Below, piece after piece: positions 12,555-18,485 of a stretch of 32,344 nucleotides of DNA. A program made the translations under genes and the position numbers. The DNA is from Alphaproteobacteria bacterium (GTDB taxonomy: Bacteria; Pseudomonadota; Alphaproteobacteria; RF32; CAG-239), in NCBI GenBank assembly GCA_017939155.1, contig JAGAZZ010000024.1, forward strand, positions 1-32,344. Reading direction: 5' to 3'. How positions within the stretch are numbered: the first letter of the stretch is position 1; the number at the start of each line of letters is the position of its first letter. The notes under the pieces were generated by a model. It searched no databases. It was not told where the DNA came from and was given only the letters and a program-made list of their open reading frames with translations.

Positions 12555-13085
12555 ATGAAAAAGTTTTTTTTATTAGCGTTTTTATTGACAGTTTCAGCCT
12601 GCAAGTCTGAGCAGGTGATTGTTCCGGCAGTGGTTCATAATGTTAATACCACTCAGGAGATTGTGGTGGAGAAAGCGCATTTGCCGATTATCGGCGAAGT
12701 GGAGCCGATTTATTTTCTGCCGATGAAATCTCCCTTTTATGCCAGAATTGACACGGGAGCGACAACCTCAGCGCTTGATTGTCAAAATGTTGAATATTTT
12801 GAACGGGACGGCGAAAAATGGGTTGCTTTTAAGCTGAAAAACAGAAAGAGCGGCGAAGAACATATTTTTGAGAAAAAAATTGAGAGAACGTTTAGAGTTA
12901 GACGTGTCGGGGAAGATGAAAGCCGTAAGGCGGTTAAGATGGATGTCAAGATGGGAGGAGAAACTTTCAGTGCCGTCTTTTCAATTGCTGACCGTTCGGG
13001 TTTTGACTATCAAGGGTTAATCGGACGTAATATTTTAACGGGACGATTTATTGTTGATACGTCTACTTCTTATACGTTGAACTGA
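12555..13085 (+). CDS. Retropepsin-like aspartic protease lipoprotein (Zn_protease/RimB family)
   Basis: A 176-residue lipoprotein: MKKFFLLAFLLTVSAC is a signal peptide with lipobox VSAC (Cys16). The body carries the retropepsin active-site motif DTGATTS (Asp66-Thr-Gly-Ala) and the later segment YQGLIGRNIL that plays the role of the flap/psi-loop end. It belongs to the family annotated as ATP-dependent zinc protease (PF05618), which is an aspartic-protease fold rather than a true zinc enzyme. It is the first of three genes with an inactive transglutaminase/7TM protein and an ATP-grasp ligase, an association described for this family. Inferred role: an envelope peptidase that trims peptides made or handled by the partners. 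Only one catalytic Asp per subunit is expected, so it would act as a dimer. Confidence 0.85.
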   Translation: MKKFFLLAFLLTVSACKSEQVIVPAVVHNVNTTQEIVVEKAHLPIIGEVEPIYFLPMKSPFYARIDTGATTSALDCQNVEYFERDGEKWVAFKLKNRKSGEEHIFEKKIERTFRVRRVGEDESRKAVKMDVKMGGETFSAVFSIADRSGFDYQGLIGRNILTGRFIVDTSTSYTLN

Positions 13086-13103
13086 GTTTTAAGGATGTTG
13101 ACT

Positions 13104-14642
13104 ATGAAATTGGCTAATTTGTTTTCGGTTAGAAAAGTTTTGAGTTTTCTTTTAGTGCTGTCTGTTGTTTATGCTACATACAGCATTTATTATAAGGTTA
13201 AATATTGGGGGTTTTCTTTATCTCCCAAACAGGTGACGGATATTTGGACGATTGACGCAAAAGTATCTTTTGATGCAATGGGGGAAGATGTCAGGGTTTC
13301 TTTGGGTGTGCCGGCAGATAATGAAAGCTTTAAAGTGTTGAGTGAAGAAATTGTGGCAAAAAACTATGATGTTGTGCGGGATAAAGCTAAAAACAGACTG
13401 GTTATGCAGGGGCGCAAAAAGGAGGGCAAACAAAAACTCTATTATCGTTTAAATATTTATGATGATGTTCAGAACAATGCCATCAATAAAAACAAACCGG
13501 CAAAAGTTGAGCGACCGCTTTTATCTGAAGAAGAACAGATACAGATGAACAAACTTTGGGAATTAGCTAAGAACCAAGATGGTGATAAAGTTCAGGGTGT
13601 GATTGCCGCAGTTAACCAGGAAATGATGGAGCCGACGATGAGTTTGGTTTTACCGCTTAATCACACTTCTAAAGAATTTGCAGAAAAGATTATTCAGATT
13701 TTGGCTTATAAACGGATTCCGGCGCGCATAGCTCGCGCTCTCAAACTTGAAGAAGGCAAGAAGAATGACAGCTTGTCGATTATGCTTGAAGCGTATGTTG
13801 ATAATAAATGGACACTTTATGATTTGAGTACGGCAAAAATCGGGTTGCCGAAAAATTGGGTTGTTTTTCAGCGCGGCGGCGTATCTTTGCTTGATGTTCG
13901 CGGGGGTGAAAATTCTAAGGTTATGTTTTCGGTGTTAAAATCTGTTGCGACTCCTTTAAAAATGGCGGAACACAGAGCTAAGGCAAACAATGAGCTTTGG
14001 GGATATGAATATTCTATTTATACTTTGCCGCTTATGGAGCAGAACGCTTTAAAATGGTTGATGATTTTCCCGCTGGCGATATTGGTTGTGGTTATTATGC
14101 GCAACGTTATCGGCGTGACGACCATGGGGACTTTTACACCGATGTTGTTGGCAATGTCTTTGGTTAAGACAGGGTTTGTGCCGGGGTTGATTTGTTTTTC
14201 GGTTATGATTGGATTAGGCTTGATTATGCGTGCTTTGGTGGCGCGGCTTAATTTATTACTGGTACCGAGGATTTCGTTTGTGGTGATTTTTGTGATTTTA
14301 TTAATACAAGTCCTAGCGATTATCGGATATAAATTAAATTATGGCATTATCAGCTCGGCTATTTTCTTCCCGATTATTATTACCGCGTGGATTATTGAGC
14401 GCGCGTCGATTACCTGGGAAGAAGAAGGGGCTATGAATACGTTGAAGGAAATTTTTTATACTTTAGTGACGGCGGTGGTGACTTATTTTGTTATTAGTAG
14501 CGAGTATGTCCGCCATATTATGTTTGCTTTTAACGAGCTTAATTTGGTTGTTTTATTTATTGTTATGCTACTTGGCACTTATACAGGATACCGATTAACG
14601 GAATTGTCGCGTTTTGCGCCGCTTATCCGCAAAGGAGAATAA
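13104..14642 (+). CDS. Inactive transglutaminase domain fused to seven-helix membrane domain
   Basis: A 512-residue membrane protein. After one N-terminal helix (about residues 10-30) comes a soluble, probably periplasmic domain of about 300 residues that contains a transglutaminase-like region (around 180-270: ASN-HTSKEFAEKIIQILAYKRIPARIARAL then a WTLYDLSTAKIG segment) with no obvious Cys-His-Asp triad. The C-terminal third is a bundle of six or seven helices (about 315-505). This matches the Transglut_i_TM / 7TM_transglut architecture. The ORF opens at 13095, but AAGGA (13091-13095) overlaps that ATG, so the start is 13104. It follows the retropepsin gene by 18 bases and its TAA is one base from the ATP-grasp start: one operon. 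Its function is not established; a sensor or scaffold for peptide modification is a guess. Confidence 0.85.
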   Translation: MKLANLFSVRKVLSFLLVLSVVYATYSIYYKVKYWGFSLSPKQVTDIWTIDAKVSFDAMGEDVRVSLGVPADNESFKVLSEEIVAKNYDVVRDKAKNRLVMQGRKKEGKQKLYYRLNIYDDVQNNAINKNKPAKVERPLLSEEEQIQMNKLWELAKNQDGDKVQGVIAAVNQEMMEPTMSLVLPLNHTSKEFAEKIIQILAYKRIPARIARALKLEEGKKNDSLSIMLEAYVDNKWTLYDLSTAKIGLPKNWVVFQRGGVSLLDVRGGENSKVMFSVLKSVATPLKMAEHRAKANNELWGYEYSIYTLPLMEQNALKWLMIFPLAILVVVIMRNVIGVTTMGTFTPMLLAMSLVKTGFVPGLICFSVMIGLGLIMRALVARLNLLLVPRISFVVIFVILLIQVLAIIGYKLNYGIISSAIFFPIIITAWIIERASITWEEEGAMNTLKEIFYTLVTAVVTYFVISSEYVRHIMFAFNELNLVVLFIVMLLGTYTGYRLTELSRFAPLIRKGE

Positions 14643-14643
14643 G

Positions 14644-15591
14644 ATGTTTGAATGGTTTAAAACAGCAAAGTTGTTGCGTGAAAACGGTGTTTTGGGAATG
14701 AATGACCGAAATTACTCGGTTATTTCCAAATGCAACAAACGTTCGCTTTATACGTTGGTTGATGATAAAGTTAAAACCAAGCGTTTGGCAAACAGCATTT
14801 GCATTAATACGCCGAAGATGATTGGTATTATTGAGTATCAATTTCAGGTTAAAAACCTTTTAGAGATTGTCAAAGGGTATAAAACTTTTGTGATTAAACC
14901 GGCGCATGGCAGCGGCGGAAAAGGCGTCTTAGTGATTAAAGATTATGACGGCGAGAAGTTTTACAGTGCGTCAGGAGATGTTTTAAGCTTTAATGACGTT
15001 TATCAGCATATTTCAAATACGTTGAGCGGTCTGTTCAGTTTGGGCGGAAAATATGATGTGGCGTTGATTGAGGAAGCGGTTATTTTCAGCGATGTGTTTA
15101 AGAATTTCAGCTATCATGGCGTTCCTGATGTCAGAGTGATTGTGTATAAAGGCTATCCGGCGATGGCAATGATGCGTTTGGCGACTAAAGAATCGGGTGG
15201 ACGGGCTAATTTGCACCAAGGAGCGGTCGGGGTTGGTCTTGACGTTCGGACGGGACGGACTTTAAATGCGGTTATGCACAATAAACCGATTACGGTTCAT
15301 CCGGATACCGGTGCAAATTTGATGGATTTGAAAGTTCCGTTTTGGCGTGAGCATTTGATTATCGGGGCGTTAGCTTACGATATGACAGGACTCGGGTATT
15401 TGGGGGCGGATATTGTTTTGGATAAAAACAGAGGTCCGATGATGTTAGAGATTAATGCTCGTCCGGGGTTGGCTATTCAGATTGCTAACGGGCGTGGGCT
15501 TAAAACGAGATTAGAAGAGATTGAAGAAAGTTATCCTAAAGAGCTTTCTGCAGAGCAAAGAGTTGATTTTGTCTTGAATAACGGAAAATAA
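14644..15591 (+). CDS. ATP-grasp alpha-L-glutamate ligase-like protein
   Basis: A 315-residue ATP-grasp ligase related to RimK-type amidoligases (sugar-transferase/ATPgrasp_ST type, PF14397), which join an amino acid, often glutamate, to a carboxyl group with ATP. Seen motifs: FVIKPAHGSGGKGVLVI (nucleotide-binding lysine and glycine-rich loop, around residue 80), PDVRVIVYKG and MMRLATKESGGRANLHQGAVGVG (around 160-200), and LEINARPGLAIQIANGRGL with the metal-binding Glu and Asn (around 275). The ORF could open at 14614, but the strong site AAAGGAG places the start at 14644. It sits one base after the 7TM gene, completing the cluster. The substrate cannot be read from the sequence. Confidence 0.85.
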   Translation: MFEWFKTAKLLRENGVLGMNDRNYSVISKCNKRSLYTLVDDKVKTKRLANSICINTPKMIGIIEYQFQVKNLLEIVKGYKTFVIKPAHGSGGKGVLVIKDYDGEKFYSASGDVLSFNDVYQHISNTLSGLFSLGGKYDVALIEEAVIFSDVFKNFSYHGVPDVRVIVYKGYPAMAMMRLATKESGGRANLHQGAVGVGLDVRTGRTLNAVMHNKPITVHPDTGANLMDLKVPFWREHLIIGALAYDMTGLGYLGADIVLDKNRGPMMLEINARPGLAIQIANGRGLKTRLEEIEESYPKELSAEQRVDFVLNNGK

Positions 15592-16378: not shown

Positions 16379-16858
16379 ATGAGCGGTGATGTAGAAATTT
16401 TAACAGCTCAGTTTCGTGACGCAGATGATATTGCAAAGCTCTCGTATCAGGTGGGCAAAATGCACGATGAAGCGTTACCGGAATATTTTAAGAAAACAAA
16501 TTTGAATAATCACCAGCAAATAGTTCGTGAATTGATTTTGGATGAAAAAGTTGAAGTTTTTAAGGCAGTTAAGGATGATAAAATTTGCGGTTTTTTATTT
16601 TTGTTTGTTCCGGTTAAGCCGCGAGGCGGATATGTTCATCCTTTAACGGGGTGTGTTTTGAATCTGGGTGTTGATGAGGCGTGCCGAGGGGGTGGAATCG
16701 GAACAAAATTAATGCGAGCCACTGAGAAGTTTTTGTATGATAAAGGGATTTATGCGATTGATTTAAGCGTTTTTAAGTTTAATGAAAAAGCACATCGTTT
16801 TTATGAAAAGTTAGGTTATCAGGAACTTGAGATTAATATGCACAAGGTTTTGAAATAA
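16379..16858 (+). CDS. GNAT family N-acetyltransferase
   Basis: A 159-residue acyl-CoA-dependent acetyltransferase. Motif A, which binds the CoA pyrophosphate, is readable as LNLGVDEACRGGGIGTKLM (about residues 98-116), with the R-G-G-G-I-G core, followed by the motif-B region AIDLSVFKFNEKAHRFYEKLGYQE. The N-terminal part has the expected acceptor-side helices. The substrate (a protein N terminus, an antibiotic, a polyamine or another amine) cannot be inferred. The start has AGAAAGG 8 bases upstream. It is a single gene between two independent transcription units, and no resistance gene is nearby. Confidence 0.9.
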   Translation: MSGDVEILTAQFRDADDIAKLSYQVGKMHDEALPEYFKKTNLNNHQQIVRELILDEKVEVFKAVKDDKICGFLFLFVPVKPRGGYVHPLTGCVLNLGVDEACRGGGIGTKLMRATEKFLYDKGIYAIDLSVFKFNEKAHRFYEKLGYQELEINMHKVLK

Positions 16859-16881: not shown

Positions 16882-16910
16882 TTGACAAAAAAGTTTTTGG
16901 GTGGTATTAA
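16882..16910 (+). promoter_or_regulatory. Strong sigma-70-type promoter of the pseudo-subtilase gene
   Basis: A consensus -35 TTGACA (16882-16887) is followed, after exactly 17 bases, by TATTAA (16905-16910). This is the best promoter in the window. It predicts a transcript starting near 16917 with a leader of about 130 bases before the ATG at 17048. Confidence 0.75.
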
Positions 16911-16915
16911 TGGAT

Positions 16916-17035
16916 ATGAGCTTGGCAAACGCTCGGAATGTCCGCCAAAGGGTTTATTGCCATAACAGTTTTTTACATAGATTTCTTGAAGCGACTTATT
17001 TTGCTTATCGGACAGGCGATATGATAAGTTGTTAG
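16916..17035 (+). CDS. Candidate 39-residue leader peptide (uORF)
   Basis: An open frame of 39 codons fills the leader of the pseudo-subtilase gene: ATG at 16916 (an alternative in-frame ATG at 16910 overlaps the -10 hexamer), TAG at 17033-17035, 12 bases before the main ATG. The peptide begins MSLANARNVRQRVYCHNS and is rich in His, Arg, Phe and Tyr. The ATG lies almost exactly at the predicted transcription start, so it would be read leaderless from this promoter; the only Shine-Dalgarno-like sequence, GGTGG, suits the 16910 start. It is too short for chance to be excluded. If translated, its stop codon next to the AAAGGA site of the main gene could couple the two genes or allow attenuation. 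I see no certain homologue. Confidence 0.4.
   Translation: MSLANARNVRQRVYCHNSFLHRFLEATYFAYRTGDMISC
16923..17029 (+). promoter_or_regulatory. Leader RNA with possible hairpins
   Basis: Within the leader, TTGGC (16922-16926) can pair with GCCAA (about 16944-16948) around the inner stem CGGA/TCCG, and ACTTAT can pair with ATAAGT close to the ribosome binding site of the main gene. This could make start-site access conditional (temperature, ligand or uORF translation). It matches no riboswitch class known to me, and the positions are approximate. Confidence 0.3.
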
Positions 17036-17047
17036 AAAGGAATTGAT

Positions 17048-18430
17048 ATGAGTGAATATCTTGAGTTCTTCCGTGTGGAAGCGAAATCTTTATTAAAAAA
17101 TTTCCGTGATAATGATAAAAATGCGATTGCCAGATGTGCGAAAGTCTTTGGCGAAAGAACAGATTTGTCTTTGATGAATATGCAACACGTTGTGGCAAAA
17201 GAATTTGGTTTTGCTAATTGGAACGAATTGCAGAGTGCTGAGCGTTGGCAGTTGGCGGCGGCTTTGATTGCTGATAAAAACAAAATGTTAAAGACGCCTT
17301 TGGCGGTGGATTATGAAGAGGGTGCCCTTTATCCTTCTTCTGAACGTAGCGTGAGAATAAGAGCTAAACTGGAAAAGAGACCAGGGCTTGATTTGGTCAA
17401 CTTTACTCAAACTTCTCGAAACGGGTTTGTGGATTCATTTTTAAGACTTAATTCTCTTGATATTTCAGAGTGTGATTTGGCAAAAATGGATGTCTTGTCT
17501 GTGACGTATGATGAATATACTATTTGGCCAAAAGAGGCAGATAAATTACCGCAAGGGTTTGACCCGGCTAAATTTATTGAAGAACGGAAAAATCTCGGGC
17601 TTGGGGTGCGGGCGTTGCATAAGCAGGGAATAAATGGGGCGAATCGGGCTGTGGCGGTTATTGATTTATCTATGCTTACGGACCATATTGAATATCATAA
17701 TAACTTAAAAGAGCATGAGATAATTGGTTGTGCGGAGAATCTCCATGGTTTGAATGGCGCGGTATTGGTTTCGGCAATAGCGGGAACAAATTGCGGCGTT
17801 GCGCCTAAGGCAGAGGTGTATTATTTTTCTGCTGACAATAGGGAAAACGGACAGCTTAGTTTGAGATATTATGCCAGAGCGTTAAATAAAATATGCGATT
17901 TGCATATTCAACTTAAAAATGATGGAAAATCCGGTATTGATACGGTTTGCATTTTGTGGGATGTGTCGAGAGAAATTGATGGCGCGGCGGAAATGAAAGC
18001 GGCATTGCAAAGAGCTGAAGAATTGGGGATTTGGGTCAATAGCGGAAATTATCGTTATAGCAATAAATTATGGCGCGCTTTTCGTATACATTGTAAAATA
18101 GGTGGTGATGTTGAAAATCCTGATGACTATGAAGTTATGCCAAATGAGCCGAAGTTTCCTGAAAGTCAGAAAGATTTGTTGCGCTCAATGCTTTGTTTTC
18201 CGGCAGGAGGAAGAACTGTTGCGCAAGCGGATAGGCTGGACGCATATCAGTTTGATGCGCCGGGGTTTTATCTTAATGCGTATGTGTGTGGTTTGTTTGT
18301 GTTGGCAAGAAGTATTTGTCCGACTTTAACGCCGGATGAGTTTTATCGGATTGGTTTGGAAACGGGGGATTTTCGTGATGGAATCGGGGTTATTGTAAAC
18401 CCGCAAAAGCTGATTGACGCTTTAAAATAG
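17048..18430 (+). CDS. Predicted pseudo-subtilase with N-terminal small helical domain
   Basis: A 460-residue protein whose central and C-terminal part (about 185-450) reads as an S8 peptidase fold that has lost catalysis. The Asp segment AVAVIDLS (Asp206), the His segment LHGLNGAVLVSAIAG (His233) followed by CGVAPKAEVYYF, and the oxyanion Asn in NSGN (Asn334) are recognisable. At the serine position, where family members have a G-[TM]-S motif, it reads APGFYLNAYVCGLFVLA, with Phe407; there is no serine from 381 to 421. The N-terminal 65 residues (a LLKNFRDNDKNAI and QHVVAKEFGFANWNELQ pattern) resemble a small domain that occurs at the N terminus of ankyrin and glyoxalase-type proteins. No signal peptide or membrane helix is present, so it is cytoplasmic. 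The start has AAAGGA 7 bases upstream. Function unknown; regulatory binding of peptides is a guess. Confidence 0.7.
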   Translation: MSEYLEFFRVEAKSLLKNFRDNDKNAIARCAKVFGERTDLSLMNMQHVVAKEFGFANWNELQSAERWQLAAALIADKNKMLKTPLAVDYEEGALYPSSERSVRIRAKLEKRPGLDLVNFTQTSRNGFVDSFLRLNSLDISECDLAKMDVLSVTYDEYTIWPKEADKLPQGFDPAKFIEERKNLGLGVRALHKQGINGANRAVAVIDLSMLTDHIEYHNNLKEHEIIGCAENLHGLNGAVLVSAIAGTNCGVAPKAEVYYFSADNRENGQLSLRYYARALNKICDLHIQLKNDGKSGIDTVCILWDVSREIDGAAEMKAALQRAEELGIWVNSGNYRYSNKLWRAFRIHCKIGGDVENPDDYEVMPNEPKFPESQKDLLRSMLCFPAGGRTVAQADRLDAYQFDAPGFYLNAYVCGLFVLARSICPTLTPDEFYRIGLETGDFRDGIGVIVNPQKLIDALK

Positions 18431-18449: not shown

Positions 18450-18485
18450 AAACCGGCTTCAGAGGTGAAGCCGGTTTAAGTTTTT
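18450..18485. terminator. Bidirectional terminator between the pseudo-subtilase and hsp20 genes
   Basis: AAACCGGCTTC (18450-18460) pairs with GAAGCCGGTTT (18467-18477) around a 6-base loop. T-rich sequence follows on the plus strand and an A-rich stretch precedes it, so it can also serve the convergent hsp20. Confidence 0.85.

Follow-up and report, generated by a model that had tools for sequence, protein, structure and literature searches.

The current study indicates that a gut alphaproteobacterium encodes a 460-residue protein of subtilisin fold whose catalytic residues are degenerate, and we give a probability of roughly 60% to the reading that it is a cytoplasmic pseudoprotease, which acts by binding and is under the translational control of its own leader RNA. 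The combination of selection on a dead family and a leader that can hide the Shine-Dalgarno (SD) sequence on every copy suggests that the protein, once an enzyme, now probably serves in binding or regulation under tight control. The whole analysis, of protein and RNA alike, was computational; the window is the complete stretch of DNA that was analysed (32,344 nucleotides), and its relevant features are compiled in Table 1.

Table 1. Features of the pseudoprotease locus in the window
Feature	Position	Strand	Basis
GNAT acetyltransferase gene, recurrent neighbour	16379..16858	+	Genome matches, neighbourhoods
Promoter (TTGACA, 17 nt, TATTAA)	16882..16910	+	Sequence; counterparts upstream of homologues
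Structured 5' leader RNA	16912..17044	+	Match to model R1, 140.5 bits
Hairpin P1, GGCAA (16924-16928) / TTGCC (16957-16961)	16924..16961	+	97% of cells paired, one-sided changes only
Loop-loop pseudoknot, 6 bp, TGTCCG (16939-16944) / CGGACA (17009-17014)	16939..17014	+	100% of cells paired, one compensatory change
Anti-SD GATTTCTT (16980-16987) / Shine-Dalgarno AAGGAATT (17037-17044), enclosing P3	16980..17044	+	Minimum-energy fold
Hairpin P3, 11 bp, 16990-17000 / 17023-17033	16990..17033	+	97% of cells paired, compensatory changes at four pairs
Apical stem of P3	17003-17005/17015-17017	+	Within P3
Pseudoprotease gene, 460 aa	17048..18430	+	ORF and homologues
N-terminal four-helix module, residues 1-66	17048..17245	+	AlphaFold model
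S8-fold domain, residues 150-460	17495..18427	+	AlphaFold model, PDB alignment
Asp206, S8 Asp column	17663..17665	+	67-row alignment
Asn236, S8 His column	17753..17755	+	67-row alignment
Phe407, S8 Ser position	18266..18268	+	67-row alignment, gap-free count from G415
Bidirectional terminator-like hairpin 3' of the gene	18450..18477	.	Mechanical scan

The S8 fold of the protein

The predicted 460-residue protein was confirmed as an open reading frame (ORF), but its family membership could not be read from simple searches: the protein alone had no match in Pfam or NCBIfam, and a first phmmer search of the PDB returned subtilisins at an E value of about 1 only, so that structure and profile were required. 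AlphaFold predicted the structure with high confidence (pLDDT 92.4, pTM 0.93), and in comparisons with the PDB, for which Foldseek was also run, the best alignment of residues 150 to 460 was to Tk-subtilisin (Z 22.2, 256 residues, 3.2 A). The fold of the S8 (subtilase) superfamily is thus found both in the model and in the PDB alignment, and this structure-based check strongly supports the S8 layout that had been proposed in the first-pass annotation. At the sequence level, homology to PF00082, which the 460-residue protein does not reach alone, was established stepwise, i.e., by its match to the congeneric homologue L028 (E 1e-27), by the score of L028 above the PF00082 cut-off (30.1 bits), and by a profile of 67 family members that retrieved subtilisins from the PDB (E 3e-18). 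PHROGs gave one weak protease match for the pseudoprotease (E 0.011), and there was none in phage records.

Loss of the catalytic triad

The triad columns were read in a 67-row alignment of 21 clade members and 46 relatives outside the clade, the latter being called active solely in the sense that the triad is present. The complete Asp-His-Ser triad occurs in none of the 21 clade members versus 43 of the 46 outside relatives, and the corresponding residues of the query are D206, N236, and F407. The earlier assignments of Asp206 to the S8 Asp column and of Phe407 in place of the serine both held, the latter by gap-free counting from the conserved G415-L416, and serine is indeed absent from positions 381 to 421. 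His233, which had been taken for the catalytic histidine, had to be replaced by Asn236, three residues later in the S8 His column; position 233 varies between H, R, and S even in close orthologues. Asn334 also had to be abandoned as a landmark, being present in 2/21 clade members and 2/46 other relatives.

The loss is therefore wider than initially seen, as it comprises the histidine and, in some copies, also the aspartate. Nine residues are found at the Ser position of the clade (F, T, P, V, A, S, G, C, or R) and five at the His position (N, S, I, A, or K), while the Asp is retained in 15 of 21 members and replaced by E, S, or N in the other six. The homologue L063 has a serine at the Ser position without the histidine, and the loop ahead of the Ser position is two residues shorter than in the relatives. 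An intact motif was found in no orthologue, and a triad loss restricted to the source genome was rejected because the whole clade is affected. With no nucleophilic Ser-His pair in the protein, the predicted loss of protease activity is strongly supported, and the alignment makes it almost certain that the 460-residue protein is devoid of peptidase activity. Pseudoenzymes at times regain catalysis through migrated residues, and together with the frequent retention of Asp206 this could speak for a still-active hydrolase using other residues of the old cleft; however, we consider this highly improbable given the variability of all three triad positions and the fact that the loops rank among the most rapidly evolving segments of the protein; conservation would be expected of a new active site. 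Elsewhere in the tree, triad residues have been lost in L108, L123, and L124, all from Bacillota.

Selection and evolution of the clade

The pseudoprotease clade forms a single branch (support 100/100), whose orthologues and paralogues occur in the same genus and in one other genus of the family, and more distant relatives are spread across many phyla. Pairwise dN/dS ratios range from 0.10 to 0.27 (pooled, 0.15 to 0.16), and the gene family is maintained by purifying selection; a ratio of about 0.15 implies that the dead form itself is retained, which is consistent with a binding or regulatory role. Some copies are broken, by one stop in L022/L070 and by stops plus a frameshift in L024/L073, and L026 is an internally deleted remnant, as expected if the family were decaying and functionless, but the low dN/dS ratio, the intact state of most copies, and the conservation of promoter and leader leave this explanation hardly any probability.

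The fastest-evolving 15-residue window is the former His loop (positions 226 to 240), whose rate is 2.6 times the mean and is elevated in each of the eight groups of close relatives. Second comes the former Ser loop (401 to 415; 1.6 times the mean, elevated in six of the eight groups), practically level with windows 100-114 and 308-322, and the slowest windows are parts of the N-terminal module (0.12 to 0.34). Positive selection was not demonstrable for the former active site, since dN/dS in the two loops is 0.2 to 0.4 and at most about 0.4, indicative of weaker constraint and possibly of diversification. The faster loops would be explained equally well by relaxed constraint and by a binding surface undergoing change.

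The pair L067 and L071 is a mosaic, with 90 to 98% identity from the leader through base 590 of the gene and mostly 40 to 78% further on. In this pair and in L051/L052, the upstream flank or the core of the gene diverges while leader and N-terminal module are nearly identical, as if bodies had been swapped under a constant 5' end or as if the RNA constraint extended into the coding region.

A triad-complete paralogue is present in the same genome (C37:19566-20837; L025:1288-2559), and its close orthologues L027 and L028 come from only two further genomes of the genus. An obligate active partner protease is accordingly unsupported, as such a close paralogue exists in three genomes only. A tandem arrangement was observed at another locus (L075:2589-3488), where a shorter second S8-like gene (IIDN, SFHAS) lies ahead of a triad-complete alphaproteobacterial member.

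The N-terminal module

The N-terminal helical module of about 65 residues, noticed in the first-pass annotation, is real: the model contains four helices (positions 3 to 20, 24 to 34, 42 to 52, and 58 to 63; 64 to 66 residues in total). It starts right at the N terminus, where a signal peptide was not seen by eye, and is almost invariant within the clade. The module also heads separate proteins of about 200 to 330 amino acids in the same genus. Their C-terminal part is unrelated and without a Pfam match (C45:38887-39114 [L032] in the same genome, L182, L181, and others). Foldseek and VIA-align found no matching fold in the PDB for the module; the searched residues 1 to 78 are all helical and unlike a subtilisin-type prodomain. 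Pfam returned only subthreshold hits, e.g., OST-HTH/LOTUS (E 0.013) and Glyoxalase_8 (E 0.036), and the match to the RNA-binding LOTUS domain is a lead rather than evidence.

A structured leader RNA

TTGACA or a close variant is found upstream of nearly all homologues, with a well-conserved -35 element. Because the promoter sits just upstream, the leader RNA takes up nearly the whole 5' untranslated region. The earlier ranking of this promoter as the best in the window was not confirmed, as the mechanical scan does not list it. The leader ORF proposed previously (16916-17035) was rejected: its ATG is present in 15 of 28 leaders, its frame is disrupted by frameshifts and runs into stops within 2 to 39 codons in 25 of them, and what is conserved is the RNA structure.

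Across 21 sequences, 98.3% of the cells of P1, P3, the apical stem of P3, and the pseudoknot are paired, and six pairs change on both sides; the covariation score was reached by no shuffle, and slid structures were 26 to 48% paired. These values refer to a single bacterial family with partly closely related copies. An anti-SD pairing of 8 to 13 bp is possible in all 30 leaders, including those of broken copies, with a core that is conserved rather than covarying. The leader thus combines a conserved, covarying structure with the ability to hide the SD, as is characteristic of riboswitches and autogenous leaders, and the predicted fold makes it likely that it switches translation. Rfam contained no match at E values up to 5 for the leader and none for six related loci.

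In a search of 152 genomes of the family, the covariance model detected 30 leader copies, distributed over 19 genomes; 28 of the copies precede the pseudoprotease gene family (broken or remnant genes included). Weak matches in other genera (G083, G084, and G111; 25 to 27 bits) were dismissed as chance hits with broken or missing helices that overlap ORFs, and the triad-keeping paralogues L025, L027, and L028 carry no leader. The two orphan leaders precede an ORF for a hydrophobic peptide of 28 amino acids (MSIGFVKSIVILCCLFVAAFSEEDKKKD), followed by a methyltransferase gene and an N-module gene; they lie on the reverse strand of L151 and L153, where the ATG is at base 1642 of the reverse complement. 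In size and make-up, this peptide is reminiscent of TisB and other small type I toxins.

Confinement of the leader almost wholly to one gene family would be expected more often where the gene product or a dedicated ligand exerts control than in a general metabolite switch, and autogenous control through the leader may be entertained as a tentative proposal. An RNA thermometer appears a rather unlikely substitute for a ligand or protein switch: the SD is hidden by a U-rich strand, and an hsp20 gene is a neighbour in the window, L048, L064 to L066, L068 to L070, L072, and L073, but hsp20 is missing from the remaining sites, and a thermometer needs neither a strictly conserved P1 nor a loop-loop pseudoknot away from the SD.

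Gene neighbourhood

The GNAT family of the window is located upstream of the pseudoprotease gene in the window and L048 and closely downstream in L049 to L057 and L071, hence on either side; the pairing recurs at several unrelated chromosomal sites. Other GNAT genes are immediate neighbours in L059, L060, L062, L065, and L066, and no GNAT is adjacent in L063, L064, L067 to L070, L072, and L073. A pseudo-S8 gene or its remnant adjoins nine of the 12 genome matches of the window GNAT. In G001, the two genes seem to be separated by a single ORF that is truncated at contig ends, G010 has a solitary GNAT at a ribosomal-protein site, and one further match is fragmentary. From this gene order, the chances that the GNAT is a partner of the pseudoprotease appear about even.

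GNAT toxins exist, and the recurrent pairing at different sites and on either side, as well as the mosaic, duplicated, and decaying copies, would also suit a toxin-antitoxin-like or selfish pair with the GNAT as toxin, the pseudoprotease as neutraliser, and the leader setting their ratio. Against this stand the solitary GNAT of G010, the many pseudoprotease copies without a GNAT neighbour, a protein exceeding the usual antitoxin size, and the absence of a match for the pseudoprotease in the defence library PADLOC, so that we regard such a pair as unlikely, albeit slightly less so than a thermometer.

The remnant L026 / L154 (G002 C85) encodes 80 amino acids and consists of the leader, the start of the N-terminal module, and the C-terminal tail; its entire core is deleted, and it still adjoins a GNAT gene. 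A further row of genes in the window (12555-15591) encodes a Zn_protease (PF05618), an inactive transglutaminase-7TM fusion (PF14400, PF14402), and a sugar-transfer ATP-grasp protein (PF14397).

Proposed function

In the model of a binding pseudoprotease, the S8 fold would have been kept and its chemistry lost, with a peptide, a protein, or a small ligand bound in or around the former substrate cleft and the fixed N-terminal module serving as a docking or output part; binding is probably the function of the protein. The leader would be closed when the anti-SD helix hides the SD and the pseudoknot joins the two hairpin loops, and a bound factor, perhaps the pseudoprotease itself, might shift it between closed and open states, so that the protein would be made when the SD is opened. 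The neighbouring GNAT acetyltransferase would be the likeliest functional partner. A more far-reaching and rather doubtful possibility is a new class of regulators, namely, a pseudoprotease receptor with the rim of the former active site as a variable recognition surface, the invariant N-terminal module together with a partner acetyltransferase as output, and a dedicated leader RNA that would set its synthesis by sensing the pseudoprotease itself or its ligand.

The leader RNA is new with respect to Rfam and has a complete, testable layout of two hairpins, a loop-loop pseudoknot, and an anti-SD helix; as it goes with one gene family, the hypotheses of autogenous control and of a specific ligand are open to direct testing. 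In addition, the dead-site sequences of the family form a natural series in which the conversion of an enzyme cleft to another use can be studied.

Comparison with known systems

With respect to the RNA, autogenous ribosomal-protein leaders, e.g., of S15 (PMC4137082), and riboswitches likewise present a structured, covarying leader beside the start codon of one gene family. Unlike these described families, the leader of the current study is without a counterpart in Rfam, and its binding of a ligand or protein is hypothetical. Translation of the tisB mRNA of Escherichia coli is governed by a 5' pseudoknot and starts from a sequestered site (PMC7708055). The sequestered ribosome-binding site and the 5' pseudoknot are shared in layout, not in sequence, and the position of the two orphan leaders ahead of the 28-residue hydrophobic ORF is a tisB-like hint; standby binding and an antisense RNA belong to the tisB system (PMC7708055) and not to what is predicted for the present leader.

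The S8 relatives L074 to L126 from Bacillota, Planctomycetota, Elusimicrobiota, Chloroflexota, and other phyla share the catalytic-domain family (26 to 34% identity to the query) and the motifs E-x-GKNPGLGIR, IAIID, and GVAP with the query, but differ from it by the usual presence of the triad and by an N-terminal module in none of the aligned proteins; many of them begin with hydrophobic stretches that resemble signal peptides by eye. The congeneric homologues L025, L027, and L028 are apparently cytoplasmic like the query, but they have the triad motifs IIDEG, YHGSG, and GGYSW and lack both N-terminal module and leader.

Few bacterial S8 pseudoproteases have a known role, and CspC and CspA, the clear case found, are the closest known parallel for the protein (PMC6636752). 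CspC of Clostridioides difficile has a degenerate triad (Asp105, Thr170, and Gly485) and is a germination regulator that responds to bile acids among other signals (PMC6636752). Both systems combine the S8 fold with a degenerate triad, of which CspC keeps the Asp and has lost two residues, and the regulatory or sensory role of CspC and CspA would be the one that we infer here. CspC functions in spore germination and contains a jelly-roll insertion in addition to its prodomain, whereas the pseudoprotease of the gut alphaproteobacterium is equipped with a helical N-terminal module and preceded by a structured leader.
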